Source of the DNA: Lachnospiraceae bacterium
GTDB taxonomy: Bacteria > Bacillota > Clostridia > Lachnospirales > Lachnospiraceae
Direction: 5' to 3'
Assembly: GCA_017622845.1 (NCBI GenBank)
Contig: JAGAQJ010000031.1
Span: forward strand, 1-64,000
DNA: 64,000 nt
The notes under the pieces were generated by a model. It worked only from the letters and a program-made list of their open reading frames with translations, had not been told where the DNA came from and made no database searches. The translations under genes were made by a program, and so were the position numbers. Positions 8,099-30,287 of the stretch are shown piece by piece; the first letter of the stretch is position 1, and every line of letters starts with the position of its first letter.

Positions 8099-9553
8099 AT
8101 GGCAGATGAAAAGTTGAACACAGGCCCCGAGGGGCAGAAAGCTGCCGAGTCTGTTACGGCTGATCTGGCTCCTGCTCCCGAGATTACCGCTGAACCTGCA
8201 CCCGCGCAGGAACAGGCCGGGCCCGCCCAGCCTGCTCCCGGTGATGTGGTTATATCCGCCGATCAGATTGACGAGCTTATGGCGAAAAAGCGGCAGGCGG
8301 CCAGGGCTGAAATTGAGAAAGAGGGCGATCCTCCTGCAAAGGAGGCCGGAGCTCCTGCGGCGGAACGTCCGCCTGCTGGCGCTGAGGAGCCCAAAAAGCC
8401 GCGCCGGGGCCGTCCGCCCAAAGCGGAAAAAACGGAGCAGGCCGCGCCGGGGGATAAGAAAGAGCCGAAAACGCCAGGGCCCCGCAAGGGCCGCCCACCC
8501 AAGGCGGATAAGGCGGCCCCCGGCGAGGCCCAGCCGTCACAACGAGACAAAGTGTCCCGAAATGGAGATAAAGCTAAAAAGCCCCCGGCGGCAAAAAAGG
8601 AACCATCCGTCAAGGAGTCCGCTCCACCGGAACAGCCTGCCCCGGAGCCGACACCTCCGCCCCGTCCCATTGAGGAGGGCAAGCTGGTCTATCTGAAACT
8701 TTCCGAGCTCCATGCGTTCCATACATTCCGGGATCATCCGTTCCAGGTAAAGGACGATGACAAGATGACGGAGCTGGTGGGAACGATCAAGGAGCATGGC
8801 GTTATGACCCCCGCCACCGTCCGCCCGGAAAAGGACGGCCAGGGCTATGAGATTATCGCGGGCCACCGCCGCCACCACGGCAGCGCCCTGGCTGGACTGG
8901 ATGAAATGCCTTGTATTGTCCGCAACATGACGGACATTGAGGCTGTCCGGGAAATGAAAAACAGCAATAAACAGCGTGGGGAACCCCTCCCCAGTGAACT
9001 TGCAAAGCTGCTCGATCTGGAGGTTGAGGCTATCAAGCACCAGGGAGGCCGCCTGGACGGCGTGGCCGCTGGCGATGTGGGAAAACGCTCGGTTGAGATT
9101 GTCGGAGAAAACAACGGCATGAACTATAAAAAGGTCATGCGGTATATCCGGCTCAATTCTCTTGTGCCCGAACTGTTAAATAAGGTGGACGAGAAGGGCC
9201 TGGGCTTTATGCCTGCGGTGGAGATCTCGTACATCAAGCCCAAAAATCAGAGGCTGATCGCCGTGTCCATTGACGGTGAGCAGTCCTCCCCCTCTCTGGC
9301 CCAGGCAAAGCGGCTTCGAGAGCTGGATAAGGAGGGCAAGCTCAACGGCGATGTGATTGACGGCATTTTAAGCGAAAAGAAAAAGGAGGATCGCGGTGTG
9401 ATTATTTCTACTGCTGAACTGGAAAAGTATTTCGGCAAGGAGGTCACTCCTGCCAAGATGAAGGAGCAGATCATGGCCCTGCTGGATGACTGGAAAGAGA
9501 AACAGCCGCCCGAGCTGGCGAAGGCTCCCAAAAAGATGGAGAAAGACAAATAA
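8099..9553 (+). CDS. ParB/KorB-like partition protein with AT-hook motifs
   Basis: A 484-residue protein whose C-terminal 290 residues match ParB/RepB/Spo0J. A ParB N-domain starts about residue 196 (VYLKLSELHAF), the CTP-binding GHRRH lies at 255-259, and a helix-turn-helix region follows (about 310-350). The first 190 residues are low-complexity Ala/Pro/Lys and contain two AT-hook cores (RGRPPK at 103-108, KGRPPK at 130-135). No ParA partner is encoded. AAGGAGG precedes ATG 8099. As first gene of an element carrying 14 copies of one palindrome, it is the leading candidate for their binding protein, like RK2 KorB with its dispersed operators (inference). Palindrome copy 1 lies inside the gene. 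Confidence 0.88.
   Translation: MADEKLNTGPEGQKAAESVTADLAPAPEITAEPAPAQEQAGPAQPAPGDVVISADQIDELMAKKRQAARAEIEKEGDPPAKEAGAPAAERPPAGAEEPKKPRRGRPPKAEKTEQAAPGDKKEPKTPGPRKGRPPKADKAAPGEAQPSQRDKVSRNGDKAKKPPAAKKEPSVKESAPPEQPAPEPTPPPRPIEEGKLVYLKLSELHAFHTFRDHPFQVKDDDKMTELVGTIKEHGVMTPATVRPEKDGQGYEIIAGHRRHHGSALAGLDEMPCIVRNMTDIEAVREMKNSNKQRGEPLPSELAKLLDLEVEAIKHQGGRLDGVAAGDVGKRSVEIVGENNGMNYKKVMRYIRLNSLVPELLNKVDEKGLGFMPAVEISYIKPKNQRLIAVSIDGEQSSPSLAQAKRLRELDKEGKLNGDVIDGILSEKKKEDRGVIISTAELEKYFGKEVTPAKMKEQIMALLDDWKEKQPPELAKAPKKMEKDK
8539..8563. repeat. ICE palindrome copy 1
   Basis: Left arm ends CGAGACA, spacer AAG, right arm starts TGTCCCG. It lies within the parB-like gene, where it encodes QRDKVSRN in the low-complexity linker. 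It is one of the less perfect copies at the outer arm positions. Confidence 0.75.
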
Positions 9554-9562
9554 CCTGCCCAC

Positions 9563-9587
9563 ACTTCGAGACACTTTGTCCCGAGGG
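9563..9587. repeat. ICE palindrome copy 2
   Basis: Left arm ACTTCGAGACA, spacer CTT, right arm TGTCCCGAGGG. It starts 10 bases after the parB-like stop codon and precedes the large dyad at 9611-9772. Confidence 0.9.
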
Positions 9588-9610
9588 GCCCCGCCCCTCG
9601 TCTGGATGGG

Positions 9611-9772
9611 CTCTGTGGAGATATATCCCCCGTCGCCGCCTGTTAGAAAGCACAGTCGGGAGTGGGCCGTCAAGGGTGCAGCGCACCGCCGCTTTTGCGG
9701 CGGCTTGCCCTTGACGGTCTGCCCCGGCTGTGCTATTTCCAGCGGCGCGGCGGGGGTATATATCCTCCAGAG
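9611..9772 (+). other. 162-nt dyad-symmetric structured element (candidate ncRNA)
   Basis: The two halves pair over most of their length: the CTCTG-GGA-ATATA end matches the CCTCCAGAG end, AGCACAG matches CTGTGCT, CCGTCAAGGG matches CCCTTGACGG, and the apex is CCGCCGC-TTTT-GCGGCGG at about 9686-9702. It lies between the parB-like and DUF4406 genes. It could be a long-hairpin RNA, a leader, or a DNA cruciform such as a replication or transfer origin. No coding potential is convincing. Confidence 0.6.
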
Positions 9773-9810
9773 CCGCCCCCTTTCCCATGAATGGGAAAGG
9801 GCGGGGGGAT
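9773..9810 (+). other. Strong hairpin following the large dyad
   Basis: CCCTTTCCCAT and ATGGGAAAGGG pair across a 2-base turn, extended by GC-rich flanks. There is no U-run, so it is not a classical terminator. It lies 41 bases before the next start codon and could affect its translation or stabilise the transcript. Confidence 0.55.
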
Positions 9811-9850
9811 TGGGCTGAAGTTTCTTATTAAAATATCGGAGGTGTTGACT

Positions 9851-10192
9851 ATGAAACGACCCCTTGCTTATATCACCGCCGCATGGCTGAGCGGTGACAA
9901 CGAAAACGCGGAACAGGCCGCCCGTTACTGCCGGGCTGTGTATGAGGCGGGCTTTTCGCCCATCTGTCCCTCTCTGTATCTGCCCCTGTTTCTCAATGAC
10001 GCGGTTCCCGAGGAACACAAGAGCGGAATTGATATGTCCCGCGATCTGCTCCGGCGCTCCCATGTGCTGGTGGTATGTGGCCATACCATGACCGAGGCTA
10101 TGAAAAATGATATTGCCGTAGCCCAGCGGCTGGGGATCACCGCTACCACCCTTGAGGGCATCTTGACCGTCAAGGGCCAGGGCCGCCGCTGA
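9851..10192 (+). CDS. DUF4406 domain-containing protein (deoxyribosyltransferase-like)
   Basis: A 113-residue protein resembling DUF4406 and nucleoside 2-deoxyribosyltransferase-like folds. YITAAWLSGDNENAEQAARY begins a Rossmann-like fold, SPICPSLYLPLF is the second strand, and SHVLVVCGHTMTEAMKNDIA is the C-terminal strand-helix where the fold usually keeps a catalytic acid. The start at ATG 9851 follows CGGAGGTG. It ends two bases before the ardA start and is a common passenger in Tn1549-like elements. Activity has not been established to my knowledge. Confidence 0.7.
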   Translation: MKRPLAYITAAWLSGDNENAEQAARYCRAVYEAGFSPICPSLYLPLFLNDAVPEEHKSGIDMSRDLLRRSHVLVVCGHTMTEAMKNDIAVAQRLGITATTLEGILTVKGQGRR

Positions 10193-10193
10193 T

Positions 10194-10907
10194 ATGGCGG
10201 CTCTGTTCGAGGCGTACATTACCAACCTGGGGAAATACAACGAGGGCGAGCTGGTAGGGCAAACGCTGAAATTCCCTACCAGTCCCCAGGAGGTACAGGC
10301 GCTGCTGAAAAATATTGGCGTGGACGGCATACGGTACGAGGAGTTTTTCATTACCAGTTTTGACGGTGATGTACTTGGCCTTTATGACTATCTGAGTGAG
10401 TATGAAAATCTTGACGAACTCAACCATCTGGCCCGTCTGCTTTCTGAGCTTGACCAGAGCGAATTGGAAACGCTGGAGGCGGTGCTGGACAGCGGCGATC
10501 ATACCTCCAGCGTAGCTGACATTATAAACCTCGTCCATAACCTTGACTGTTATGACTTCCATCCCGGCGTGACGGATGAAGAAACGCTGGGACGCATCTA
10601 TGTGGAGGATATGGGAGCCCTCGAGGTGCCGGAGGATGTGAAACCGTACTTTGATTATGCGGCCTATGGGCGGGATGTTTCTATCAACGAAAACGGGCAT
10701 TTCGCGCCGGGCGGCTATGTAACCAAGATGAGCACAGATTTTCGGGAGATATACCACGGCATCCAGGACATCCCCCCGGAACACAAGGTCTTTTCTTTTC
10801 CCAAGCTCTCCATTCGGGAACAGATGGCCGCCTACAAGGAAGTGATTGACAGCTCATCGCTGGAGGGATACAGGCAGATTTCCCAAAAGGAGCACGAGGA
10901 ACGGTAG
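10194..10907 (+). CDS. ardA: Antirestriction protein ArdA
   Basis: ArdA mimics B-form DNA and blocks type I restriction enzymes, protecting incoming conjugative DNA. The 237-residue, strongly acidic protein opens with FEAYITNLGKYNEGELVG and has the domain-2 segment EFFITSFDGDVLGLYDYLSE and the C-terminal YDFHPGVTDEETLGRIYVED. It is longer than the classical form of about 165 residues, with a C-terminal extension ending LSIREQMAAYKEV (about 204-216), a motif also found at the ends of three other proteins of this element. It starts two bases after the preceding gene. Palindrome copy 3 begins five bases after its stop. Confidence 0.92.
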   Translation: MAALFEAYITNLGKYNEGELVGQTLKFPTSPQEVQALLKNIGVDGIRYEEFFITSFDGDVLGLYDYLSEYENLDELNHLARLLSELDQSELETLEAVLDSGDHTSSVADIINLVHNLDCYDFHPGVTDEETLGRIYVEDMGALEVPEDVKPYFDYAAYGRDVSINENGHFAPGGYVTKMSTDFREIYHGIQDIPPEHKVFSFPKLSIREQMAAYKEVIDSSSLEGYRQISQKEHEER

Positions 10908-10911
10908 CGGT

Positions 10912-10936
10912 ACTTCGAGACACTTTGTCCCGAGGA
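10912..10936. repeat. ICE palindrome copy 3
   Basis: Left arm ACTTCGAGACA, spacer CTT, right arm TGTCCCGAGGA. It lies between the ardA stop and the ribosome binding site of the pcfB gene. Confidence 0.9.
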
Positions 10937-10961
10937 ATGCCCTGGAAAGGAGGCGGTTTAA

Positions 10962-11441: not shown

Positions 11442-13269
11442 CATCAAAAAACATCTCATACCCAACATTCCATACCTGTTTATCCTGTGGGCCTGTCTGA
11501 AGCTGGGGACGGCTTACCGTCTGGCGGCAGGCGCGGATTTCGCTCACAAGCTCATCGGGCTGGGCCAGACCATCGGCCCGGCCTTTGCCGACTTTGCGCC
11601 GGGGCTTAATCCCTTTGACTGGCTGGTGGGCATCGTGGGCGCTGTGGCGTTCCGTCTGCTGATCTACATGAAAAGCAAGAACGCGAAAAAATACAGACGG
11701 GATGCGGAGTACGGCTCCGCCCGGTGGGGGACGGAAAAGGACATCAAGCCCTTTGTCGATCCCAAGTTTGAAAACAACGTGATCTTGACCGGGACGGAGT
11801 TTCTTACCATGAACACCCGGCCTAAAATCCCGGCAAACGCCCGCAATCTGAATTGCTGTGTCATCGGCTCGTCCGGCTCCGGCAAAACCCGGTTCTGGCT
11901 GACACCCCAGCTGCTCCAGGCGCACAGCTCTTTTGTGGTGGTCGATCCCAAGGGCGGAGTATTGTCCCAGGTGGGCTCTTTTCTGCAACGCAAGCCGCAG
12001 AATTATAAAATCAAGGTTTTCAACAGCATTGAATTTTCCAAGTCCATGCACTATAACCCCCTGGCCTATATCCGCAACGAGGCCGACATCCTCAAATTCG
12101 TGGATGCCCTTATTTCCAACACCAAAGGCGAGGGCAAGGAGGGCGATCCGTTCTGGACAAAATCAGAGACTTTGCTCTACTGCGCTTTGATTGCTTATAT
12201 CATCTTCGAGGGCCCCGCTGAGGATCGGAACATGAACACGCTGGTGGATATGATTTCCGGCATGGAGGTCAAGGAGGATGACGAAAACTTTATGAACGCG
12301 GTGGACTATATGTTCGCTGGGCTGGAAAAGAGAAAGCCGGATTGTTTCGCGGTCAAGCAGTACAAAAAATACAAGCTGGCCAGCGGCAAAACGGCAAAGT
12401 CGATTCTTATTTCCTGCGGCGCTCGTCTGGCTCCCTTTGACATCCCCCAGCTCCGGGAGATTATGAGCTATGACGAACTGGAGCTTGACCGCATCGGGGA
12501 TCGGAAAACCGCGGTGTTCTTCATTATCTCGGACACCACGCAGACCTATAACTTCCTTGTAGCCCTGGCCTTTTCCCAGATGTTTAACCTCCTGTGTGAG
12601 CGGGCGGACAATGTTCACGGAGGCCGCTTGCCCCATCATGTGCGGGTGCTGTGGGACGAGGCCGCAAACACGGGCCAGGTGCCCCAGCTCGAAAAGCTGG
12701 TGGCGGTCATCCGCTCCCGCGAGGTGAGCCTGTGCCTTTTGTATCAGCAGTTGGCTCAATGCAAGGCGATTTATGACAAACACGCGGAAACGATACTCGG
12801 CAACATGGACAGCGTGGTGTTCCTCGGTGGCCGGGAAGCCAGCACCATCAAGGAAATTTCCGAGAACTGGCTGGGGAAGGCCACGATCTCCATGCAGACC
12901 GACAGCCGCTCCCGTGGCCAGTCGGAAAGTTACAGTCAAAATACCCAGCGGCTGGGCCGGGAACTGATGACCCCCGCCGAGCTTGCTACTATGCCGGGCG
13001 ACAAGTGCATTTTGCAGTTGCGGGGCCTGCCCCCATTCTTTTCGCCCAAGTACGATCTGAAAAAGCATCCGAACTATAAATACACGGCTGAAGCCGACAA
13101 ACAGAAAAACGCTTTTGACATCGACAAGCTCATAAACCGCCGCAGGCGGCCCGGGCTTTCGGAGTCCTGCGAGATGTATGAGGTATCTGTGCCGGACGAT
13201 GCGCTCACAGACGAGGACGAGGACATCCTCAACTATGACGACATCGACGATCCAGACGCCTTTGCATAA
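11428..13269 (+). CDS. VirD4-like type IV coupling protein (conjugative DNA transfer ATPase)
   Basis: The coupling protein recruits the relaxase-DNA complex to the secretion channel and powers transfer. The 613 residues have N-terminal membrane segments (about 12-30 and 60-80), Walker A GSSGSGKT at 147-154, VVDPKGG shortly after, a Walker B-type VLWDEAANTG at about 407-416, and the SREVSLCLLYQQLAQ helix typical of VirD4/TraG. The start is GTG with AAGGAGG upstream, overlapping pcfB. The acidic C-terminus (DDALTDEDEDILNYDDIDDP) may contact partners. Palindrome copy 4 and a terminator follow. Confidence 0.95.
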   Translation: MRTDNIKKHLIPNIPYLFILWACLKLGTAYRLAAGADFAHKLIGLGQTIGPAFADFAPGLNPFDWLVGIVGAVAFRLLIYMKSKNAKKYRRDAEYGSARWGTEKDIKPFVDPKFENNVILTGTEFLTMNTRPKIPANARNLNCCVIGSSGSGKTRFWLTPQLLQAHSSFVVVDPKGGVLSQVGSFLQRKPQNYKIKVFNSIEFSKSMHYNPLAYIRNEADILKFVDALISNTKGEGKEGDPFWTKSETLLYCALIAYIIFEGPAEDRNMNTLVDMISGMEVKEDDENFMNAVDYMFAGLEKRKPDCFAVKQYKKYKLASGKTAKSILISCGARLAPFDIPQLREIMSYDELELDRIGDRKTAVFFIISDTTQTYNFLVALAFSQMFNLLCERADNVHGGRLPHHVRVLWDEAANTGQVPQLEKLVAVIRSREVSLCLLYQQLAQCKAIYDKHAETILGNMDSVVFLGGREASTIKEISENWLGKATISMQTDSRSRGQSESYSQNTQRLGRELMTPAELATMPGDKCILQLRGLPPFFSPKYDLKKHPNYKYTAEADKQKNAFDIDKLINRRRRPGLSESCEMYEVSVPDDALTDEDEDILNYDDIDDPDAFA

Positions 13270-13274
13270 ATCAA

Positions 13275-13299
13275 ACTTCGGGACAAAGTGTCCCGAGGT
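13275..13299. repeat. ICE palindrome copy 4
   Basis: Left arm ACTTCGGGACA, spacer AAG, right arm TGTCCCGAGGT, with a single arm mismatch. It begins six bases after the virD4 stop and is followed by a terminator at 13308-13331. Confidence 0.9.
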
Positions 13300-15043: not shown

Positions 15044-15827
15044 CGTGACTTCGAGACAAAGTGTCCCGAAGTCCCCGGAGCTCCGGGAGGGCCTGTTTCT
15101 TATGGACGGCATCGAGGGCCTGCGCTCTCTCCCGCAGCATTCGGTGGATATGCTCTTGACCGATCCGCCTTACGGCACAACCCGGAATTATTGGGATGTG
15201 CCCTTGCCCCTCCCGGAGCTATGGGAGGCGGTGCGGTGGGCGGTCAAGCCCGAGGGCGCGGTGCTGTTCTTTGCTCAATGCCCCTATGACAAGGTACTGG
15301 GGGCCTCCAACCTCCCCATGCTCCGCTATGAGTGGATATGGTATAAGGAGCGCGGGACGGGATTTCTCAACGCAAACCGGGCCCCGCTGAAAAAGTCGGA
15401 GAACATTCTGGTGTTCTATCAGAAGGCCCCGCTCTACAATCCGCAGTTTACTTACGGCAAGCCGTATAGCCGTACTCATGCCCGCAGCGGCACCAGCCCC
15501 AACTATGGGAAATTCGGGCGGCAGAGCTCTGAGTCCAGCGATGGGCGGCGCTATCCGGGAAATGTGCTGTTTGTCCCCACGGTGACAGGCGGCATCCATC
15601 CCACACAAAAGCCCGTGGAGCTTTGCGAGTATCTGATCAAGACCTACACCCGCCCCGGCGAGGTGGTGGCGGACATCTGCGCGGGCTCCGGGACAACGGC
15701 GGTTGCCGCCCTCAACGCAGGCCGCCGCTTTGTCTGTTTTGAAACCGCCCCGGCCTTTTATGCCCCGGCCACGGAGCGCATCCGTCTGGCGCGGGCGGCG
15801 GTGGAGGTTGGGAAGAAAGGAGTATAA
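15033..15827 (+). CDS. Site-specific DNA methyltransferase (N4/N6, DPPY type)
   Basis: A 264-residue amino-methyltransferase that would methylate adenine N6 or cytosine N4. The catalytic DPPY lies at 44-47 (LLTDPPYGT) and the SAM-binding ICAGSGTTAVAAL at about 214-226, i.e. the beta-class order with catalysis first. HPTQKPVELCEYLIK is the family helix before the SAM loop. No restriction endonuclease is adjacent, so it is an orphan. AGGAGG precedes ATG 15033. The first 15 codons run through palindrome copy 5 and encode TSRQSVPKS. Confidence 0.9.
   Translation: MPGSVTSRQSVPKSPELREGLFLMDGIEGLRSLPQHSVDMLLTDPPYGTTRNYWDVPLPLPELWEAVRWAVKPEGAVLFFAQCPYDKVLGASNLPMLRYEWIWYKERGTGFLNANRAPLKKSENILVFYQKAPLYNPQFTYGKPYSRTHARSGTSPNYGKFGRQSSESSDGRRYPGNVLFVPTVTGGIHPTQKPVELCEYLIKTYTRPGEVVADICAGSGTTAVAALNAGRRFVCFETAPAFYAPATERIRLARAAVEVGKKGV
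15048..15072. repeat. ICE palindrome copy 5
   Basis: Left arm ACTTCGAGACA, spacer AAG, right arm TGTCCCGAAGT, with one arm mismatch. It lies inside the first codons of the methyltransferase gene and five bases after the stop of the SpoVG-domain gene. Confidence 0.9.
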
Positions 15828-15829: not shown

Positions 15830-16420
15830 ATCGGAAAATATTCTATCATTTATGCTGATCCGCCCTGGCGGTATGCTCAAAAGGGCTTACAGGGCGCGGC
15901 GGAGCACCATTACCCCACAATGGGGATTGACGAGTTATGTGCGCTCCCGGTGGCTGATCTGGCGGCCCCGGACAGCGCACTTTTTTTATGGGCCACGTTC
16001 CCGCAACTCCCGGAGGCCCTGCTGCTGATTAAGGCATGGGGCTTTACCTACAAAAGCGTGGCCTTTGTCTGGCTGAAGAAAAATAAAAAGGCGGATAGCT
16101 GGTTTTACGGCCTGGGCTTCTGGACACGGGGCAACGCGGAAGTGTGTCTGCTGGCAACGAGGGGCCATCCCAAACGGCAGGCGGCGAATGTCCACCAGTT
16201 TATCATTTCCCCCATTGAGGCCCACAGCAAAAAGCCGGACGAGGCCCGCGACAAGATCGTTTCCCTCATGGGCGATCTGCCCAGAGTGGAGCTCTTTGCC
16301 AGACAACACCCGCCCGGCTGGGATGTGTGGGGAAACGAGGTCACAAGCACCGTCCCGGACTTCGGGACACTTTGTCCCAAAGTCCAGGGCGAGGAAGGAG
16401 GTTTTTCATGCCCTATGTGA
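15830..16420 (+). CDS. MT-A70 family adenine methyltransferase, non-ATG start
   Basis: MT-A70 enzymes make N6-methyladenine. The catalytic DPPW sits right at the N-terminus (IIYADPPWRYAQ). Reading starts at ATC 15830, eight bases after GAAAGGAG, which makes the family-typical start x-GKYSIIYADPPW. No ATG, GTG or TTG is available between the upstream region and the motif, and the first ATG (15920) would remove the active site. The product is 196 residues with ALFLWATFPQLPEALLLIKAW and RGNAEVCLLATRG typical of the family. It begins three bases after the preceding methylase gene. Palindrome copy 6 lies in its last codons. Confidence 0.8.
   Translation: MGKYSIIYADPPWRYAQKGLQGAAEHHYPTMGIDELCALPVADLAAPDSALFLWATFPQLPEALLLIKAWGFTYKSVAFVWLKKNKKADSWFYGLGFWTRGNAEVCLLATRGHPKRQAANVHQFIISPIEAHSKKPDEARDKIVSLMGDLPRVELFARQHPPGWDVWGNEVTSTVPDFGTLCPKVQGEEGGFSCPM
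16359..16383. repeat. ICE palindrome copy 6
   Basis: Left arm ACTTCGGGACA, spacer CTT, right arm TGTCCCAAAGT. It sits within the 3' end of the MT-A70 gene (encoding DFGTLCPKV) and 24 bases upstream of the PrgI start. Confidence 0.9.
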
Positions 16421-19123: not shown

Positions 19124-20783
19124 GCCCCGCCCGGAGGCCGGGGCCGGCTCCCGAAAACAGGCCGAGGCCACTTCGGGACAAAGTGTCCCAAAGTCCAAAT
19201 TCCGGCAAAAGAGCCAGCAGGAACAGGCCGCCGAGTCAAAGCTCCGCATGGAAAAACGGGGTGAAAAGCTGGAAAAAGCAAAGGGCAAGCTGGCAAAACA
19301 AAAACCGCCCAAAAAGCCCGGCCCGGTGAAACGGGTGGGCCGGGTAGCTGGCGGCTCTGTCCATAGCTTTGTGCATGGGAAAATCTACGAGGTGGAGCAT
19401 GAAAATGTCGGCACCGAGGGAGCTCATCAGTCCGAGCTTGTGGGTGAGTCGGCGCTCCGGCATGGCTCTCATTTTCTCAAACGGAAAATCCGTGAGCACC
19501 CGGCAAAAGCTGTCCAGCGGGCCGAGTCCAAGTATATCAAGGCCACGGCGGATTATCACTTTCACACCGCCGCCCAGGAACACCCGGAGCTTTCACAAAA
19601 TGCCCTGTCCCGCTACTGGCAGAAACGGCGGCTTCGCAGGCAGTACCAAAAGCGGGCAAAGGAGGCCGCGAAACAGGGAGCCGCAGCCGCCGAGAAAACC
19701 GTTTCCGCCACGGAAAAGCTGACGGCCCAGGCGGTGGATTTCGTCAAGCGGCATCCCTCTGGCTGTCTGCTGGCGCTGGCCTGTGTCCTGCTCATTTTCA
19801 CGGTGCAGTCCTGTTCGTCCTCGCTGGTGATGCTGGGAAACAGCGGCATTGGCGCGGTTGGGGCCAGCACCTACCCTTGCGAGGATCGGGATATGCTGGG
19901 GGCCGAGGCCGCCTACTGTGATTTAGAATCGGAGCTCCAACACTACCTTGATACCTACGAGAGCACACACGACTATGACGAGTACCATTTCGATCTGGAC
20001 GACATCGAGCACGATCCCTATGTGCTGATCTCGCTCCTTTGTGCGCTTCACGAGGGACAATGGACGCAGGCCCAGGTGGAGGGGACGCTCCAAATGCTCT
20101 TTGACCGCCAGTACATTCTCACCGAGGATGTGGTGGTGGAGGTGCGGTATCGGACGGAAACCCGGACAGACAGCGAGGGCAACGACTACGATGTGGATGT
20201 ACCTTACAATTATTACATCTGCTATGTCACGCTGGAAAACTTTGATTTATCTCATCTGCCCGTGTATCTCATGGGTGAGGATCAGATGTCCCGGTATGCC
20301 ATCTACATGGCAACGCTGGGAAACCGCCCTGACCTGTTCCCCGGCTCCGCCTATGTGGACAGATACATCACCAACCCGCCCGATGGCTATGAGGTGCCCA
20401 GCGAATATCTGGGCGATGAAACCTTTGCGGCCATTCTCTCCGAGGCGGAGAAATATATCGGTTATCCGTATGTGTGGGGCGGCAGCTCCCCGTCCACTTC
20501 CTTTGACTGCTCCGGCTATGTGTCGTGGGTGATCAATCATTCCGGCTGGAACGTGGGCCGCCTGGGGGCCCAAGGGCTCTATAACATCTGCACCCGCACC
20601 AGCTCCCCACAGCCCGGAGATCTTGTCTTTTTCAAAGGCACCTATGATACCCCCGGGGTGTCCCATGTGGGGATTTATGTGGGTGACGGGAAAATGTTGC
20701 ATTGTGGAGATCCCATCGGTTACGCGAATTTGAATACAAGCTACTGGCAGTCTCATTTTTACGCCTACGGGCGTTTACCATGA
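19104..20783 (+). CDS. CD1108-type cell wall hydrolase (NlpC/P60, VirB1-like)
   Basis: A 559-residue transfer protein that would open peptidoglycan for the secretion channel. A Lys/Gln/Glu-rich cytoplasmic part (1-215) leads to one membrane segment (about 220-240, GCLLALACVLLIFTV). An extracytoplasmic domain follows, then a C-terminal NlpC/P60 peptidase from about 450. The catalytic Cys is in FDCSGYVSW (about 469) and His in SHVGIYVGD (about 521), with a third polar residue in LHCGD (about 533). The start overlaps virB4. Palindrome copy 7 lies in the 5' coding part and encodes TSGQSVPKS. Confidence 0.92.
   Translation: MKRKPNKPRPEAGAGSRKQAEATSGQSVPKSKFRQKSQQEQAAESKLRMEKRGEKLEKAKGKLAKQKPPKKPGPVKRVGRVAGGSVHSFVHGKIYEVEHENVGTEGAHQSELVGESALRHGSHFLKRKIREHPAKAVQRAESKYIKATADYHFHTAAQEHPELSQNALSRYWQKRRLRRQYQKRAKEAAKQGAAAAEKTVSATEKLTAQAVDFVKRHPSGCLLALACVLLIFTVQSCSSSLVMLGNSGIGAVGASTYPCEDRDMLGAEAAYCDLESELQHYLDTYESTHDYDEYHFDLDDIEHDPYVLISLLCALHEGQWTQAQVEGTLQMLFDRQYILTEDVVVEVRYRTETRTDSEGNDYDVDVPYNYYICYVTLENFDLSHLPVYLMGEDQMSRYAIYMATLGNRPDLFPGSAYVDRYITNPPDGYEVPSEYLGDETFAAILSEAEKYIGYPYVWGGSSPSTSFDCSGYVSWVINHSGWNVGRLGAQGLYNICTRTSSPQPGDLVFFKGTYDTPGVSHVGIYVGDGKMLHCGDPIGYANLNTSYWQSHFYAYGRLP
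19170..19194. repeat. ICE palindrome copy 7
   Basis: Left arm ACTTCGGGACA, spacer AAG, right arm TGTCCCAAAGT. It lies inside the NlpC/P60 gene about 66 bases after its start, in a disordered basic region that tolerates the encoded GQSVPKS. Confidence 0.9.
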
Positions 20784-20795: not shown

Positions 20796-21050
20796 ATGGC
20801 AATAACCAAAAGCATGAAAATCCAGGCCGAGATTGATAAGGTCAAGGCTAAAATTTCCGAACAGCAGGCCCGGCTCAAGGAGCTGGAGCAGAAAAAGCTG
20901 GAGGCGGAAAACAGCGAGATCGTGGACATTGTACGGGGTATGAGCATCCCCCTTACCGAGCTCCCCCTGCTGTTTGAAAAGCTCCGGGGCGATGGGACTT
21001 TGGGACAAAGTGTCCCGAAGTCCGCTCCCGAGGGAAAGGAGGAAAACTGA
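20796..21050 (+). CDS. DUF4315 family protein
   Basis: An 84-residue coiled-coil protein (IQAEIDKVKAKISEQQARLK, then ELEQKKLEAENSEIVDIV) matching DUF4315, a small protein always found next to the NlpC/P60 and DUF4366 genes in Tn1549-type elements. Role unknown, possibly a scaffold of the transfer complex. TTGGAGG precedes the ATG. The last 16 residues are encoded across palindrome copy 8 (GTLGQSVPKS) and look like an addition to the domain. Confidence 0.85.
   Translation: MAITKSMKIQAEIDKVKAKISEQQARLKELEQKKLEAENSEIVDIVRGMSIPLTELPLLFEKLRGDGTLGQSVPKSAPEGKEEN
20997..21021. repeat. ICE palindrome copy 8
   Basis: Left arm ACTTTGGGACA, spacer AAG, right arm TGTCCCGAAGT. It lies in the 3' coding end of the DUF4315 gene, about 30 bases before the next start codon. 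Confidence 0.9.
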
Positions 21051-23207: not shown

Positions 23208-23232
23208 ACTTCGGGACAATTTGTCCCGAGGT
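23208..23232. repeat. ICE palindrome copy 9
   Basis: Left arm ACTTCGGGACA, spacer ATT, right arm TGTCCCGAGGT. It lies between a terminator and a promoter, 21 bases upstream of the -35 element. Confidence 0.9.
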
Positions 23233-23252
23233 GCTGAAAGCTGGGGGCATCC

Positions 23253-23281
23253 TTGTTGTCCCACCTGGACAGAGGTATAAT
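23253..23281 (+). promoter_or_regulatory. Sigma-70-type promoter with internal inverted half-sites (copy 1)
   Basis: -35 TTGTTG at 23253-23258, exactly 17 bases of spacer, -10 TATAAT at 23276-23281. The spacer holds TGTCC-CACCT-GGACA, i.e. the palindrome half-sites facing the opposite way. It drives the small CD1845-type gene and probably the relaxase. Almost the same sequence recurs at 30298-30326. Confidence 0.85.
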
Positions 23282-23329
23282 TATCTTGTAGGGAATACCT
23301 ACCCACAATTTTCAAGGAGGTATCAAGCT

Positions 23330-23621: not shown

Positions 23622-23646
23622 ACTTTGGGACAATTTGTCCCGAAGT
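23622..23646. repeat. ICE palindrome copy 10
   Basis: Left arm ACTTTGGGACA, spacer ATT, right arm TGTCCCGAAGT. It starts two bases after the stop codon of the small membrane protein and lies 58 bases before the relaxase start. Confidence 0.9.
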
Positions 23647-25145: not shown

Positions 25146-25170
25146 ACTTTGGGACATTTTGTCCCGAAGT
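25146..25170. repeat. ICE palindrome copy 11
   Basis: Left arm ACTTTGGGACA, spacer TTT, right arm TGTCCCGAAGT. It lies 36 bases after the relaxase stop and just before the hairpin cluster at 25180-25261. Confidence 0.9.
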
Positions 25171-25313: not shown

Positions 25314-25673
25314 TTACGCATCCTCCGTTTCTTTGGCGGCTTTCATCGCTTGTATAGTGGCTTCTACAATTTTCAACTCTTTTTCGTCCAGGGAGCCCAG
25401 CATAGCATCAATCCGTTTCCTGCACTCGCTCCCCGCATTTTTGGACGGATAAAAATATTGGTCTACGGATATATCGAACATCGTGACCAGTTGATAAAAG
25501 GTGTTGAGGCTGGGGTGCTGGCCATCGTTCTCATGGTACATGATCGTGCGTGGAGAACGGTCAACAATAAAAGCCACCTGTTCCTGTGTCATCCCGCTGG
25601 CCTCGCGCGCCTTTTTGATGGCGCGTCCTATGTCGTGAAAATCAAATCGTCGTTCATCTCGCTCTATCTTCAT
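25314..25673 (-). CDS. XRE-family helix-turn-helix regulator
   Basis: A 119-residue repressor-type protein. The HTH spans about residues 14-66 (RAIKKAREASGMTQEQVAF, DRSPRTIMYHENDGQHPSL) and ends FYQLVTMFDISVDQYF as in Cro/CI-type regulators. The C-terminus is helical (KELKIVEATIQAMKAAKE). It is the only ICE gene on the minus strand, divergent from the TetR gene. A palindrome AATGTAA-TT-TTACATT lies 11 bases before its start and is a likely autoregulatory operator. Base composition is lower in GC than the transfer genes. Confidence 0.88.
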   Translation of the reverse strand: MKIERDERRFDFHDIGRAIKKAREASGMTQEQVAFIVDRSPRTIMYHENDGQHPSLNTFYQLVTMFDISVDQYFYPSKNAGSECRKRIDAMLGSLDEKELKIVEATIQAMKAAKETEDA

Positions 25674-25699: not shown

Positions 25700-25772
25700 T
25701 CAGGTGTCATTATTTGAACGAGTGTGTATTTCATACTACTGACTATTTAATTTCATATTTCGGGGGAATCGG

Positions 25773-25801: not shown

Positions 25802-25802
25802 A

Positions 25803-25826: not shown

Positions 25827-25843
25827 CATAGGAGGAAACAATT

Positions 25844-26422
25844 ATGCCAAGAAGTTTTACGGAACGAGAAAAAGAAAAGATCAAAAGAAGTTTACAGGAA
25901 ACCTGTAAGCAGAGTTGGACACAGTATGGCTATAAAAAAACAAGTGTCGATGAAGTTTGCAAACAGGTAGGCATCTCAAAGGGGGCATTTTACCTTTTCT
26001 TTGAATCGAAAGAGGCACTCTTTTGTGAAGTGTTGTGTTCAGTGCAAGAACAAATCTGCAATATGGCATCAGAGGTAATGGAACAACACAAAGATAAATA
26101 TGGCGTTGCAGAAGCCTTAAAGCTCATTTATCGGGAATTTGATAAAAACAATTTTTTGTACGATTCGAACAGTATGGATTTTACAATTTTAATGAACAAG
26201 CTATCGGAGGAACAGGCAAAAAAAATCGAGGAATCCAATTATATGAGCCAACAGCTTTTTTTAAGGCAAGCGTATTTGAAATTCAAGATTGATACAGATT
26301 TGGCGATGTCAGTTATTTATTCTTTGATTGTGAATATTAAAAATAAGGATATTCTTCCTTACAATCACATGGAAACCTTTGATTTTATGGTTGACCATTT
26401 GATTGAAAGTATATATGAATAA
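25844..26422 (+). CDS. TetR/AcrR family transcriptional regulator
   Basis: A 192-residue repressor. The N-terminal DNA-binding domain (about residues 8-60) contains the HTH TSVDEVCKQVGISKGAFYLF, and the helical remainder would bind ligand and dimerise. It is the first gene of an operon with a MATE exporter 17 bases downstream, so it probably senses a compound exported by that pump. AGGAGG precedes ATG. Composition is clearly AT-richer than the transfer genes, marking a separately acquired cargo block. Confidence 0.92.
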   Translation: MPRSFTEREKEKIKRSLQETCKQSWTQYGYKKTSVDEVCKQVGISKGAFYLFFESKEALFCEVLCSVQEQICNMASEVMEQHKDKYGVAEALKLIYREFDKNNFLYDSNSMDFTILMNKLSEEQAKKIEESNYMSQQLFLRQAYLKFKIDTDLAMSVIYSLIVNIKNKDILPYNHMETFDFMVDHLIESIYE

Positions 26423-26439
26423 CAGGAGGTAGAAAAGAA

Positions 26440-27813
26440 GTGCAAAAGGCAGAAAGCAGAGGTCAGTCTACGACACTGACTTCTGGGAGCATAAAGAAAC
26501 AGTTAGTGCTGTTTTCTATTCCAATTTTTTTAGGAACTTTATTACAACAACTTTATAATGTTATTGATGCAGTTGTTGCGGGGCGTTTGGTGAATGAAGA
26601 TGCGCTGTCTGCAATCGGTGTATCTGTTCCAATTTATCTGTTGTTTGTTTCCGTTATTTTGGGTTTGGCTATTGGTATCACGATACTTCTTGCCCAATTT
26701 TTTGGAGCAAAGCAATTCGGTCAGATTAAAAGCTTAATTTCCACGATGTCCATATTTCTGTTGGCTTTAGGATTGGTGATGGCGTTTATCGGGTTAATTT
26801 TAGCAAAAATGCTATTACAGGTTACACAGACCCCCGCTGAGCTTTTAGAGCCTGCAACGGCATATTTAAGAATGGTATTTTTAGGTATTCCATTTTCAAT
26901 GCTGTATAACATGCTCGGCGCAGTTATGAGAAGTCTCGGCGAAACAAAAATGCCGTTATATGCGTTGGTTGTATCGTCCATTATCAACTTAGTGCTTAAT
27001 ATCGTCTTTGTTATAAATGGCGGGGGCGTCATTGGAATTGCCGCTTCAACAATTATTGCGCAGGCAATCTCTGGCATATACCTGTTGATACAACTCCGAA
27101 AGAAATTTCCAATGGTAATTCCAAAGCGAAGCGAGATTGTTTTCGACAGAAAATTATTAGGACTTTCCTTAAAAATCTGTACGCCAATTATTATACAGCA
27201 ACTGGCAGTTTTTCTCGGTATGCTGATTGTGCAAGGTTTTATCAATCAATTAGGAAATGCAAGCATTGGTGGAATGACAGCAGCAAGCCGAATTGAAGCA
27301 TTTATTTTGCTGCCTGTTCAAGCACTCGGCAATGCTCTGAGCATATTTGCAGGACAAAATATCGGAGCAAATGAAAAAGACCGTATGAAGCAAGGCACAC
27401 GGTTTGGCATAATGCTTGCAGTCGCTATCACAGCTCTGCTTTCCGTGATTCTGCTGTTTTGGGGAAAAGGAATATTGGGGCTAATCATCGGCAATAACGA
27501 AGAAATGATATTAAGCGGTTATAGCTATTTTCATGTCTGCCTATGGTTTTACCCGATAAATGCCTTGATATACGGATTGGGCGGTGTGCTTTCTGGTGTT
27601 GGAGATACACTGATTGCAGGGATTCATTCACTGGCATCCATACTCACGAAATTGCTTGTCACTGTATTGCTGATAGGAAAATTAGGACTTCTTTCGATTG
27701 CTATTGCTTCTTGCTTGGGATGGTGTGTAGCAAGTGCTATTGTGGTTCTGAGATACAAGGGGAATAAGTGGCAATCGAAAGCTGTTGTTAAAATTGATGG
27801 AGGTATAAAATGA
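26440..27813 (+). CDS. MATE family multidrug efflux transporter
   Basis: A 457-residue polytopic membrane protein with about 12 hydrophobic segments in two homologous halves, matching the MATE family of Na+ or H+-driven drug exporters. The N-terminal half has GTLLQQLYNVIDAVVAGRLV and a NEDALSAIGVS segment. The second half repeats the pattern from about residue 230 (LKICTPIIIQQLAVFLGML). The start is GTG 26440 after ACAGGAGG. Co-transcribed with the TetR gene and overlapping the DUF4180 gene by four bases. The transported compound is unknown. Confidence 0.93.
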   Translation: MQKAESRGQSTTLTSGSIKKQLVLFSIPIFLGTLLQQLYNVIDAVVAGRLVNEDALSAIGVSVPIYLLFVSVILGLAIGITILLAQFFGAKQFGQIKSLISTMSIFLLALGLVMAFIGLILAKMLLQVTQTPAELLEPATAYLRMVFLGIPFSMLYNMLGAVMRSLGETKMPLYALVVSSIINLVLNIVFVINGGGVIGIAASTIIAQAISGIYLLIQLRKKFPMVIPKRSEIVFDRKLLGLSLKICTPIIIQQLAVFLGMLIVQGFINQLGNASIGGMTAASRIEAFILLPVQALGNALSIFAGQNIGANEKDRMKQGTRFGIMLAVAITALLSVILLFWGKGILGLIIGNNEEMILSGYSYFHVCLWFYPINALIYGLGGVLSGVGDTLIAGIHSLASILTKLLVTVLLIGKLGLLSIAIASCLGWCVASAIVVLRYKGNKWQSKAVVKIDGGIK

Positions 27814-28208
27814 AAATAGAAGTTATAAAGAAAAATAATACAGAGGTTGCCGTTGTGAGCAGTAATGAACTGCTGATTACAGATGTTCAGTCGGCGTTAG
27901 ACTTGATTATGACAGTAAAATACGAAACGGGCTGCACAAATATTGCTGTAAACAAGGGTGCTATCATAAATGATTTCTTTGTATTGAGTACTTGCCTGGC
28001 AGGAGAAATATTGCAGAAATTCATCAACTATGGCGTGAGGTTTGCCATATACGGGGATTTTTCAAAATATACGAGTAAGCCGTTAAAGGATTTTATGTAT
28101 GAGAGCAATAAAGGAAAGGATATTTACTTTCAGCCTACTGCTTCCCTTGCTGTTGACAAGCTCTCTGGATACGCCAAAAGCAAAAAAAGAGACAGCTATG
28201 AACGCTGA
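27810..28208 (+). CDS. DUF4180 domain-containing protein
   Basis: A 132-residue protein that matches DUF4180: alternating strands and helices with KGAIINDFFVLSTCLAGEIL, FAIYGDFSKYTSKPLKDFMY and ESNKGKDIYFQPTASLAV. The family often sits beside TetR regulators and transporters. Function is unknown, though the SpoIIAA/STAS-like pattern suggests binding a partner protein. Its ATG overlaps the MATE stop (ATGA), so it belongs to the same operon. GGAGG precedes the start. Confidence 0.85.
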   Translation: MKIEVIKKNNTEVAVVSSNELLITDVQSALDLIMTVKYETGCTNIAVNKGAIINDFFVLSTCLAGEILQKFINYGVRFAIYGDFSKYTSKPLKDFMYESNKGKDIYFQPTASLAVDKLSGYAKSKKRDSYER

Positions 28209-28225
28209 TTTACAGGAGGTAGTGT

Positions 28226-28421
28226 ATGGATACAAACACAGCCGGAATGGATACGATGTCCTGTTTGCGGCAATAAAACACGGAACAAGATCCGAGAAGA
28301 TACCGTACTGGAAAACTTTCCACTCTTTTGTCCAAAATGCAAACAGGAAACACTTATCAATGTACAACACCTAAATATATCAGTTGTCAAAGAGCCAGAC
28401 GCACAGACGCAGAGCCGATAA
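28226..28421 (+). pseudogene. Cysteine-rich KTR domain gene, single-base frameshift
   Basis: From ATG 28226 (AGGAGG six bases upstream) the frame gives only MDTNTAG then garbage and a stop. Skipping one base near 28246 restores WIRCPVCGNKTRNKIREDTV, then FPLFCPKCKQETLI and the tail SVVKEPDAQTQSR. That is the KTR-type small zinc-ribbon protein (two CPxC pairs) common in conjugative elements. One extra A in the run GGAATGG explains it. The gene is therefore broken, or the base is a sequencing error. It follows DUF4180 by 17 bases and ends in a strong terminator. Confidence 0.8.
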
Positions 28422-28457
28422 CACGCAGATCAAAATGCGGTTATCGGCTCTGTTTTT
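28411..28457 (+). terminator. Intrinsic terminator of the cargo operon
   Basis: AGAGCCGATAAC and GTTATCGGCTCT form a perfect 12-bp stem with a 17-base loop, followed by GTTTTT. It overlaps the last codons of the KTR gene. Confidence 0.92.
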
Positions 28458-28505
28458 CATTACACACAAAACCGCCATCAAATGACGATCTTGCGTGAAC
28501 AAATT

Positions 28506-28549
28506 AAAACGGCGGTTTGAAATATATTTTTCAACCGCCGTTTTCTTTT
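28506..28549 (+). terminator. Second intrinsic terminator
   Basis: AAAACGGCGGTTTGA pairs with TCAACCGCCGTTTT, followed by CTTTTC. It may also act in the reverse direction because of the A-run on the left. Confidence 0.8.
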
Positions 28550-28592
28550 CAAAAAAGAGATTGCGGGGGGTGTATTAAAGTCGCCCTTTTTT

Positions 28593-28641
28593 AAGGATAC
28601 GGCGGTGTCCGGGAGGTATCGCCGTGTCCTTTTTCTTTTTC
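28593..28641 (+). terminator. Third hairpin with T-run
   Basis: AAGGATACGGCG pairs with CGCCGTGTCCTT, then TTTCTTTTT. Three terminators in a row separate the AT-rich cargo from the GC-rich backbone. No gene is seen between 28458 and 28893. Confidence 0.75.
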
Positions 28642-28785
28642 CATCCCCCTAACCTGTCAAAAAAAGCTCATCCCCCGAACAGGATCAGTCCGGCGATGGA
28701 TGCGAAATTTGGCAGTACATAAATGAATTTGTCGTTTCATGCGCTTGTGTGGCCTTGTGTCGCGCAGGCACATTTTGTTTGTCCG

Positions 28786-28810
28786 ACTTCTGGACACTTT
28801 GTCCAGAGGT
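28786..28810. repeat. ICE palindrome copy 12 (compensated variant)
   Basis: Left arm ACTTCTGGACA, spacer CTT, right arm TGTCCAGAGGT. Compared with the other copies, both arms changed at the same mirror position (G to T and C to A), so the dyad is kept. It lies 84 bases upstream of the sigma-like gene. Confidence 0.85.
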
Positions 28811-28893
28811 GCGGGGCGGCTTCCCTGGGTGCCGCTCTCCGCCAGCCCCCGTTTCGGTCACTCGTTCACCCAACACCGAAACGGAGGTTTATA

Positions 28894-29304
28894 ATGACTA
28901 TCATCAATCTGAAAGATTTTTATTATTGGTACATCCAGGATCAGTTTATCGAGGTTTCCGAGGAAGTGGCCGAGGCGCTTCGGGCCAGCGTCCGCTATGA
29001 AGCGGCCTACCAGCGGCGGCTCACCCGGCACAAGGCGCAGTATTCTCTGGACTGCGAGGACGGGATCGAATACTCCGCCTGCCTGCACGAGCCCACTCCC
29101 CAGGAAGTCCTGGAGCTCAAGGAGCGGTTTGTCCGGCTTTGGAACGCCCTCAACTCCCTGCCGGAGATCCAGGGCCGCCGGATCGATGCTCACATCATTC
29201 TTGGCAAAAGCATCAAAGAGATTGCCGAGGCCGAGGGTGTGCATGAGGAGTCCGTCCGGCAGTCTATCAAGCGGGGCTTGGAACGCATGAAAAAAACTTT
29301 TTGA
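28894..29304 (+). CDS. Sigma-70-like regulatory protein of the element
   Basis: A 136-residue protein related to the sigma-factor-like regulators of Tn916/Tn1549 elements. The C-terminal part holds a sigma region 4-like helix-turn-helix (IILGKSIKEIAEAEGVHEES then VRQSIKRGLERM, about 105-133). The N-terminal part (YYWYIQDQFIEVSEEVAEAL) resembles the conserved entry helix. ATG 28894 follows ACGGAGG. It probably controls excision or transfer genes downstream. Confidence 0.82.
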   Translation: MTIINLKDFYYWYIQDQFIEVSEEVAEALRASVRYEAAYQRRLTRHKAQYSLDCEDGIEYSACLHEPTPQEVLELKERFVRLWNALNSLPEIQGRRIDAHIILGKSIKEIAEAEGVHEESVRQSIKRGLERMKKTF

Positions 29305-29649
29305 TTTTTGCTGTTCCCTCACTTGGAATTGATGCAAAAATGTCTTGGTTATTAGAGAGGGAAATATAAACCTCTCCGCAACGGAACGGCGGCGGCCCTG
29401 AGCATAGCGCGGGGAGCCGGGCGGCGGGTGCGCGGTGACTTCTCTCCACGGAGAACGAGCGACAAACACCAGCGCCGCAAATGGGCCGGGCTATCCCACG
29501 GCCACGATCCGCCACAGGACAGGCTGGCCGCCTGTCCCTCCGGGATGCCGTCTCCTTTGCGTTGGGAGCGCCGCGCCGAGTATTGTTGTCTTTGGACAGG
29601 TCAAGGAAACGGGCGCGGCGTTCCCTAATTTCTGATAGGAGGGAAAATT
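29305..29649. other. Intergenic, GC-rich, hairpin-forming
   Basis: No credible coding frame. A hairpin GAGAGG...CCTCTC near 29355-29377 follows the sigma-like gene after a short AT-rich stretch. The rest is GC-rich without clear dyads. The end supplies ATAGGAGGG, the ribosome binding site for the next gene. Confidence 0.4.
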
Positions 29650-29850
29650 ATGAGCTTTGATTCCGAACTTGCGGCCATGCTCTCCGAGCCGTGGAGCAAT
29701 GGTGCGTGTCGCGGCTATGTCATCATGGCGATGGAAAACTGCGGTTTTTCTGACAAAGATATTCGCCATGTCATGGCAGAGCTTTACGAACTGTTTGACT
29801 TTAAGACCTTGGAAGAGGCCGAGGCTCATTACCAAAAAAGCCCCTACTAA
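29650..29850 (+). CDS. Small mobile element protein (66 aa)
   Basis: A 66-residue acidic helical protein (MLSEPWSNGACRGYVIMAME then IRHVMAELYELFDFKTLEEA) that I recall only as a conserved small gene between the sigma-like and recombinase genes of related elements. TAGGAGG precedes the start. Palindrome copy 13 overlaps the last base of the stop codon. Function unknown. Confidence 0.65.
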   Translation: MSFDSELAAMLSEPWSNGACRGYVIMAMENCGFSDKDIRHVMAELYELFDFKTLEEAEAHYQKSPY

Positions 29851-29874
29851 CTTCGAGACATTGTGTCCCGAGGT
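29850..29874. repeat. ICE palindrome copy 13
   Basis: Left arm ACTTCGAGACA, spacer TTG, right arm TGTCCCGAGGT. It overlaps the stop codon of the preceding gene and is followed nine bases later by a terminator. Confidence 0.9.
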
Positions 29875-29882
29875 GGAGTTAG

Positions 29883-29923
29883 GCAAGAGGGCGGCACCGT
29901 GGCGGTGCCGTCCTCTTGCGTTT
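29883..29923 (+). terminator. Intrinsic terminator
   Basis: GCAAGAGG-CGGCACCG pairs with CGGTGCCG-CCTCTTGC, then GTTT. A long stable stem with a weak T-run. Confidence 0.75.
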
Positions 29924-29973
29924 CCCCACAGACAAGCGGGAGGCGTTTATCAATCTGAAAAGGAGGTTTTACC

Positions 29974-30240
29974 GTGAGATTATCTGCACAGGAACTTGAA
30001 AAAATGAAAAGCGTTGACATTGGCGCGGTGGATGCCGAGTCTTTGCCCGATGTGAGCGGTATGACCTTTAATAGCTCCCTCTCCTGCGAGGAGCGCATCA
30101 TCCGATTTTTGCAGATCGTCAAAAACCCGTACTGCTTTTGCATCGGCGGCGTGGGTGTGAAAATTGAATTTGCGGAAAGTGGGCCGTCCCTCCAGGACAC
30201 CTTAACCGACTTCCTAATCCGGCAGAAAAGCGGGCTGTAA
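29974..30240 (+). CDS. DUF6870 family protein
   Basis: An 88-residue protein matching DUF6870: ELEKMKSVDIGAVDAESLPD, then CEERIIRFLQIVKNPYCFCI and VKIEFAESGPSLQDTLTDFL. The family occurs near the recombinase end of Clostridia conjugative elements and its role is unknown. The start is GTG 29974 after AAAGGAGG. A terminator overlaps its stop codon, then palindrome copy 14 and a promoter follow. Confidence 0.78.
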   Translation: MRLSAQELEKMKSVDIGAVDAESLPDVSGMTFNSSLSCEERIIRFLQIVKNPYCFCIGGVGVKIEFAESGPSLQDTLTDFLIRQKSGL

Positions 30241-30261
30241 CTTCGGTTACAGCCTGTTTGT
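30233..30261 (+). terminator. Intrinsic terminator with TTCG loop
   Basis: GGCTGTAAC, tetraloop TTCG, GTTACAGCC, then TGTTTGT. It overlaps the stop codon of the DUF6870 gene and isolates the recombinase gene. Confidence 0.85.
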
Positions 30262-30262
30262 C

Positions 30263-30287
30263 ACTTCGAGACATTGTGTCCCGAGGC
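30263..30287. repeat. ICE palindrome copy 14
   Basis: Left arm ACTTCGAGACA, spacer TTG, right arm TGTCCCGAGGC. It ends 11 bases before the -35 box of the recombinase promoter. Confidence 0.9.

Follow-up and report, generated by a model that had tools for sequence, protein, structure and literature searches.

The fourteen near-identical 25-bp palindromes of an integrative and conjugative element (ICE) from a Lachnospiraceae bacterium are, judging by sequence comparison, very probably parS-like sites recognized by the helix-turn-helix (HTH) of the element's own ParB protein; the array would coat the element and serve regulation or organisation rather than partition. The ICE, which we take to be Tn1549-like, lies in a stretch of 64,000 nucleotides (the window; assembly GCA_017622845.1, contig JAGAQJ010000031.1) of a host genome of 3,602,944 bases (3.60 Mb) in 76 contigs. 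The original prediction had compared the palindromes with KorB operators, with ParB parS clusters and with REP-like mRNA stabilisers. The first two comparisons gain support because the palindrome covaries with the HTH of the ICE ParB.

The sequence ACTTCGGGACANNNTGTCCCGAAGT was matched 13 times in the window at up to three mismatches, compared with a mean of 0.00 in 100 shuffles. The copy at 8539 differs from it at four positions and is the weakest, with pairing at 7 of 11 arm positions; ten positions pair in nine copies, nine in the copy at 29850 and eight in those at 9563, 10912 and 30263. The fourteen copies are near-identical, as had been claimed, and none contains a perfect 11-bp dyad; "perfect" would be the wrong word. 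The copy at 28786 is a distinct variant, CTTCTGGACA. A scan of all 3,602,944 bases with the 23-bp core, again at up to three mismatches, gave 13 matches, all within this stretch and none elsewhere in the genome. The original prediction had seen no copy outside 7891-32082, putative ICE ends that were considered here through base composition and gene content. The control, in which the core pattern was read backwards, gave one match.

The features of the ICE ParB are as follows.

8099..9553, + strand: parB-like gene of 484 amino acids, the first ICE gene by position, with no adjoining parA; putative reader of the palindrome.
9086..9139, + strand: HTH stretch of ParB, in which R330, V332, Y343, K344 and M347 covary with the palindrome; these residues are columns 164, 166, 177, 178 and 181 in L166 numbering.
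8399-8422 (PRRGRPPK) and 8480-8503 (PRKGRPPK), + strand: two AT-hook-like motifs, by sequence, in the N-terminal extension of ParB.

The protein contains a ParB_N domain (PF02195, 61.3 bits with a cut-off of 26.3, 9.2e-17), and its score of 72.1 bits with TIGR00180 exceeds the cut-off of 58.45 for the ParB/Spo0J family. An AlphaFold2 model (pLDDT 84.7), with helices at model residues 139-146 and 151-162 in the HTH region, resembles ParB, Noc and KorB. Its DNA-binding domain superimposes at 2.5 A over 102 residues on Noc (6y93_A) and at 2.5 A over 101 on ParB (6s6h_B), and the structures nearest to the model are CTP- or CDP-bound ParBs. The motif GHRR is invariant in alignment A2 of the ParBs; the canonical ParB motif is GERR. 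The N-terminal extension is rich in Pro and Ala by eye. Its GRP motifs, which we presume to be AT-hooks, occur twice in six near relatives and once or not at all in eight other long ParBs (14 relatives listed).

Relatives of this ParB are widespread in the genome collection, being encoded in at least 589 of at least 597 matched stretches. Searches with a ParB alignment gave at least 80 loci from named genomes and at least 80 from viral contigs; the relatives analysed (L129-L267) comprise 142 ParB open reading frames (ORFs). In the short-ParB relatives, of about 310 amino acids, the 25-bp palindrome often lies within parB itself, in the linker just 5' of the HTH. A strict filter found such an embedded palindrome in 68 of the 142 parB ORFs, with 50 different sequences and in the same frame in 67 of the 68. 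The embedded form consists of A[CA]TT, five variable bases, mostly CAAGTTG, the five complementary bases and AA[GT]T. Its arms pair at 10.55 of 11 positions, compared with a mean of 5.3 of 11 in synonymous-codon shuffles (n = 67). Since this pairing is far above that of the shuffles and is found in 50 sequences, the palindromic form has been retained through divergence of its sequence. A palindrome arising by chance from the coding sequence was ruled out by the same shuffles. Further own copies outside parB were found in only three of the 68 embedded-site loci (L152, L160 and, as one weak match, L246). Own and foreign copies in these loci amounted to 10.6 and 4.4 per Mb, a contrast that is not useful because L152 and L160, both with long ParBs, supply all but one of the 11 own copies outside parB; the foreign matches likely stem largely from the same multi-copy loci.

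Covariation was measured as the mutual information between palindrome positions 5-10 and every ParB column, with the palindrome-coded residues masked. The 68 embedded ParBs were reduced to 65 by a position filter and eight were added, giving 72 distinct proteins (effective number 46). Among 298 columns the highest scores, from 1.77 to 0.95, fell on columns 178, 181, 164, 177 and 166, the next being 0.51. All five are among the 23 scored HTH columns (P = 1.8e-6 when columns are treated as independent). At column 178, R goes with G8 in 20 of 20 cases, K with G8 in 9 of 9 and N with C8 in 16 of 16; D goes with G9 (7/7), S or T with C9 (12/12), and E with both C8 and A9 (5/5). At column 164, R occurs with G6 (15/16), E with C6 (11/11) and K with G5 (7/8), while Y at column 177 goes with A9 in 5 of 5. 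Counting by hand from a HMMER alignment to Thermus Spo0J, with GKAR anchored to Caulobacter G170-K171-S172-R173, places column 166 at Q162 and column 177 at R173 in the Caulobacter ParB. These two Caulobacter residues contact parS (PMC7383237).

The code derived from 71 short ParBs gives CGGGA at positions 5-9 for the window, which is the commonest half-site there (14 of 26); the others are CGAGA (5), TGGGA (5) and CTGGA (2). Two short ParBs, L113 and L110, share with the window both Y177 and K178 and the GGGACA palindrome; they are 36-40% identical to the window ParB and both belong to the training set. For L-type ParBs the code gives CTGGA, as observed. For the LLGKQ type the predicted CTGGA was found in L156, and for the LLVKQ type, predicted to have CTGGT, both CTGGC and CTGGT were found. 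The RNVKQ type is given CGGGT; CGGGC is commoner than CGGGT among its sites.

ParBs outside the training set came from a phylum-level draw of 398 genomes, which yielded 30 loci, 15 of them scored and none more than 75% identical to a training protein. In these 15 ParBs 56 of 65 bases were predicted correctly, including 14 of 14 at position 8; the majority base scored 0.58 and the nearest neighbour by whole protein 0.43. The nine mispredicted bases fall in L297, L305, L313, L315 and L317. The 15 scored are not all independent: L296, L298 and L324 share one palindrome, L296 and L324 one genome, and L295 is a ParB seen earlier as L074, outside the training set. The other 15 loci were dropped with a best in-gene dyad below 9/11. 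Three of these are long ParBs, one of them the window; in one dropped locus, L299 (8/11 dyad), the sequence agreed with the prediction.

The clade of the window differs from the short ParBs in its gene neighbourhood and in the number of its sites. Among loci that include the whole of parB and 1.2 kb of sequence 5' of it, ParA is encoded directly 5' of parB in 64 of the 89 with a short ParB. It was found upstream in none of the 36 with a long ParB, nor anywhere in the stretches of the long-ParB loci, by BLAST with two ParA queries, a search that could miss distant ParAs. A short locus has on average 0.23 sites outside parB (n = 88) and a long one 2.76 (n = 37), these being partial loci; up to 10 sites occur in the partial loci of relatives, compared with 14 in the window at a mean spacing of 1.67 kb.

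A gene 3' end lies within 75 bp of the centre of 12 of the 14 window sites (background fraction 0.18, binomial P = 7e-8). Ten sites had been said to begin within 45 bases of a stop codon; nine start 0-42 nt past one, and the tenth, at 19170, begins at 47 nt, two bases too far. The reported overlap of copy 13 with a stop codon was recovered. The sites at 8539, 15048, 16359, 19170 and 20997 lie wholly within ORFs as drawn, four of the five at protein ends. The sites, given without strand, are listed below.

Site 1, 8539..8563: within parB, 3' of the AT-hook-like motifs and 5' of ParB_N; L146, L210 and L211 likewise have a site in their parB.
Site 2, 9563..9587: 10 nt past the parB stop; junction common to relatives.
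Site 3, 10912..10936: 5 nt past the ardA stop; junction common to relatives.
Site 4, 13275..13299: 6 nt past the virD4 stop; junction common to relatives.
Site 5, 15048..15072: 5 nt past the stop of the SpoVG-like gene, in the N-terminal end of a methylase ORF.
Site 6, 16359..16383: in the C-terminal end of the MT-A70 ORF; likewise in L135, L141, L142 and L212.
Site 7, 19170..19194: 47 nt past the virB4 stop, in the N-terminal end of the NlpC/P60 ORF.
Site 8, 20997..21021: in the C-terminal end of the DUF4315 ORF; likewise in L160.
Site 9, 23208..23232: 42 nt past the mobC stop, with a TATAAT-bearing segment downstream.
Site 10, 23622..23646: 2 nt past the DUF5699 stop.
Site 11, 25146..25170: 36 nt past the relaxase stop; junction shared with L160.
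Site 12, 28786..28810: CTGGA variant, 83 nt 5' of a sigma-like gene (ATG at 28894).
Site 13, 29850..29874: its first base is the last base of a stop codon; 5' of orf29974; in L093, too, the relative of orf29974 is preceded by a site.
Site 14, 30263..30287: 23 nt past the orf29974 stop and 5' of a serine recombinase gene; likewise in L102.

The AT-rich cargo between sites 11 and 12 (25844-27813), which encodes a TetR-type regulator and a MATE transporter, is free of palindromes.

The same junctions are used by relatives. In 16 mapped long-ParB relatives sites recur after parB, ardA, virD4, trbL and the SpoVG-like gene, as well as near the end of the MT-A70 gene and near virB4/nlpC, although not all of these are present in each locus. 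The bases at these junctions differ from locus to locus: all are CTGGA in L138 and L212, they are of the GGGA type in L135, L141 and L142, and mostly CGGGC or CGGGT in L157-L160. The 44 long-ParB loci contain 172 sites, some of them chance matches, among these two each in L137 and L159. Where column 164 is R, 293 of 302 half-sites have G6, and where it is L, 38 of 42 have T6. The tree of the long ParBs contains at least two separate changes to L at column 164. Because L arose at least twice and goes with T6, array and protein have switched together on at least two occasions. A relative of the window-type ParB with a long branch is encoded on a 3.2-kb contig of a Dehalococcoidia metagenome-assembled genome labelled Chloroflexota (L155).

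In the mechanism that we propose, a half-site would be read by about five HTH residues, with R330 and V332 at positions 5-6, M347 at about position 7 and Y343 and K344 at positions 8-9. The shorter, mostly ParA-linked relatives have a single such palindrome within parB, and in the clade of the window, on this view, it has been multiplied, mostly at junctions. ParB may load at the sites as a CTP-dependent sliding clamp, and such clamps could coat the conjugation and transfer module. With no ParA partner, the coat might set or coordinate the expression state of the element, as with KorB, VirB and BisD, or organise the excised circle; we know of no VirB or BisD array at gene 3' ends. Clamp loading in the manner of KorB, VirB or Noc appears more likely, from what the sequences suggest, than classical partition with ParA.

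Several observations weigh against this reading of the palindromes as ParB sites. The strict filter for embedded sites was failed by 74 of the 142 parB ORFs, V in the column of Y343 goes with C or T at position 9, and the limited reach of the ParA search has been stated above. A leave-relatives-out test of the code is supportive only, because the five columns had been picked on the same data. At identity limits of 0.9 and 0.7 it gave 0.81 and 0.74, compared with 0.43 and 0.40 for all non-HTH columns, and at limits of 0.6 and 0.5 it gave 0.67 and 0.64, compared with 0.45 and 0.41 for non-HTH columns and 0.56 for the majority base. Site 28786 has T6 despite R330 in the ICE ParB. The L132 site at 12763 is its orthologue, with the same CTGGA, near-identical flanks and a position 5' of a sigma-like gene in an R330-type element; recombination with an L-type element may have left site 28786 behind. 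A promoter scan found few promoter-like matches near the sites.

The search that started from the palindrome belongs with these points. The pattern was present in 25 of 391 genomes of the class, and copies at one place were mostly of one variant (GGGACA, GGGCCA or TGGACA). It had been stated at the outset that the palindrome in elements without the parB-like gene would speak against a ParB role, and this was found in part. All 25 genomes contain some ParB match, 14 at E<1e-25 and 11 without one at that level, and in only seven (G000, G080, G194, G198, G235, G246 and G325) do a ParB match and a palindrome lie within 10 kb of each other. In G385 a weak match lies about 9 kb away, and in the remaining genomes the match is distant or on another contig. 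Among 36 loci examined further, 32 chosen by palindrome and four by ParB, 11 match no ICE gene, and several match a recombinase or one or two fragments only. G165 (five CTGGA sites), G152 and G062 have several sites with ParB not nearby. Stray copies, ICE fragments and small site-bearing elements without ParB exist, and a test that starts from the palindrome is a weak one. In L098, L104, L107 and L109 two to five palindromes accompany recombinase-like ORFs, with no ParB match in the stretch; perhaps these are small mobile elements bearing the sites of an ICE's ParB. None of 24 stretches from viral contigs has a ParB match within the stretch and 14 are without any ICE gene; two of these contigs (L210 and L211) carry a ParB outside it. 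Dyads of the form TTTGGGACANNNTGTCCCAAA occur in two to five copies per few kb in the viral contigs L039, L040, L042, L043, L046, L047, L050 and L059, which are phage-like and have no ParB relative or ICE gene within the stretch. Since related dyads occur in such contigs, the core motif alone cannot define the system. L059, with a TTTGGGACA dyad, contains phage-like ORFs, one of them terminase-like by eye.

Among the alternatives, classical partition, in which the sites would serve as parS and a host-supplied ParA would segregate the ICE when excised or replicating, is unlikely. The ParA-linked short-ParB loci (64 of 89) look like ordinary ParA-ParB-parS modules, and a search for the ParA-type domain PF13614, which found no match in the ICE, found six elsewhere in the host genome. 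However, ParA is upstream in none of the 36 long-ParB loci, and it is this ParA-less clade that has more sites. The canonical ParA-binding motif is uninformative, as it was found in 0 of 44 long ParBs and also in 0 of 72 short ones. Much less probable still is that the sites are operators of another ICE protein, such as the RstR/Xre-like repressor (25314-25673) or the serine recombinase, and that their covariation with ParB is mere linkage. The ICE does encode further DNA-binding proteins, and the phage contigs have related dyads with no ParB relative; against this, strong covariation is limited to five HTH positions and involves no other ParB columns, and the code transfers between clades. 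Simple occlusion of promoters is unlikely for most sites because few of them adjoin promoter-like sequences. Sites 23208 and 30263 precede near-identical TATAAT segments, seen by eye and unlisted by the scan. These segments, at 23247-23282 and 30291-30326 after sites 9 and 14, read GGCATCCTTGTTGTCCCACC[TC]GGACAGAG[GT]TATAAT, with a small dyad TGTCC-GGACA before TATAAT that is possibly the operator of another regulator.

Two further explanations take the palindromes as something other than protein-binding sites. RPE and REP are types of selfish dispersed palindromic repeat, and repeats of this kind, inserting where coding tolerates them, would explain the in-frame copies at protein ends and in linkers, the presence of several per element and the copies in loci without ParB. 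We nevertheless regard a selfish origin as very improbable: relatives have their sites at the same junctions even where the motif has switched throughout the set, and, as noted, other own copies occur in only three of the 68 embedded-site loci. That the palindromes are RNA hairpins at gene ends, either REP-like 3' stabilisers or terminators, is hardly credible. The dyad is able to fold, gene 3' ends lie near 12 of the 14 sites and one copy, at 13296-13278 on the minus strand, is picked up by terminator scans. A hairpin would favour G.U pairs, whereas the mispairs in transcript sense are A.C in 120 cases and G.T in 99 (172 sites), and in coding sense at the distinct embedded sites A.C in 11 and G.T in 3. 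The 8 nt downstream hold a mean of 1.4 T, with five or more T at 20 of 172 sites. A hairpin also leaves the covariation with the ParB HTH unexplained, and five window copies lie within ORFs. The mRNA-stabiliser comparison of the original prediction is disfavoured by these mispairs, by the few downstream T and by the covariation.

If the palindromes are ParB sites, ParB and site together might form a self/non-self identity system, a single evolving address, which many ParA-linked elements would hold within one gene. In the ParA-less clade the address would have become an array across the element, its sites changing together with one or two HTH residues in at least two independent switches, and the array might keep the coats of co-resident ICEs separate. 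We propose this tentatively, as a prospect a little short of even. ParB coats would then be separate as in incompatibility groups, and small site-bearing elements without parB could hijack the ParB of a resident ICE. A near-deterministic natural protein-DNA code for a ParB family would make sites predictable from protein sequence. The findings raise the questions of how a protein and its whole site array change specificity together and what role an orphan ParB has on a conjugative element.

Set beside a ParABS system, the ICE has no parA next to parB, whereas a candidate parS palindrome that matches the predicted ParB specificity lies in and near parB. In B. subtilis, too, a parS lies within the parB gene. 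The ICE shares VirB4 (979.6 bits, cut-off 325) and VirD4 (525.4 bits, cut-off 250) with clostridial conjugative elements of the CD1110/CD1115 type. In the literature searched, which was available in part and outside which lay preprints and most subscription papers, we found no description of this palindrome, including for CD1110/CD1115-type elements, nor of a hypervariable site at a fixed place in parB, a natural recognition code or, in an orphan-ParB ICE, an array at conserved junctions whose sites switch together.

The nearest parallels are ParB-type regulators. KorB clamps silence genes from distant operators, and OB is a 16-bp site 5' of target promoters (PMC11790492). The window resembles RK2 in having dispersed sites, but these are 25 bp long and mostly at gene 3' ends (12 of 14), with few near promoter-like matches. 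VirB of Shigella and BisD of a Pseudomonas ICE are, like the window ParB, ParB-like proteins on mobile DNA; PMC12704722 describes them as gene regulators, orphan ParBs that use CTP binding. VirB sites are reported to lie upstream of its promoters, unlike the 3'-end array of the window. Noc and its binding sites (NBS) differ in the site and in the family score, since the ICE ParB reaches 57 bits with the Noc model TIGR04285, below the cut-off of 315; Noc is also chromosomal, and the ICE is a mobile element. The parS of repABC replicons has a fixed frame with variable inner bases (GTTNNNNGCNNNNAAC) and in some cases falls within coding sequence or at the repB 5' end (PMC9040568). The window family likewise combines a fixed frame with variable inner bases and has sites in coding sequence. 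It differs in frame and length, and its ParB scores 32.7 bits with the RepB equivalog TIGR03454, below the cut-off of 201.5; repABC replicons are alphaproteobacterial and have the ParA-type RepA. In this comparison ParB-type regulators and dispersed operators are known, and what had no counterpart in the literature searched is the hypervariable in-gene site, the natural code and the junction array that switches as a set.

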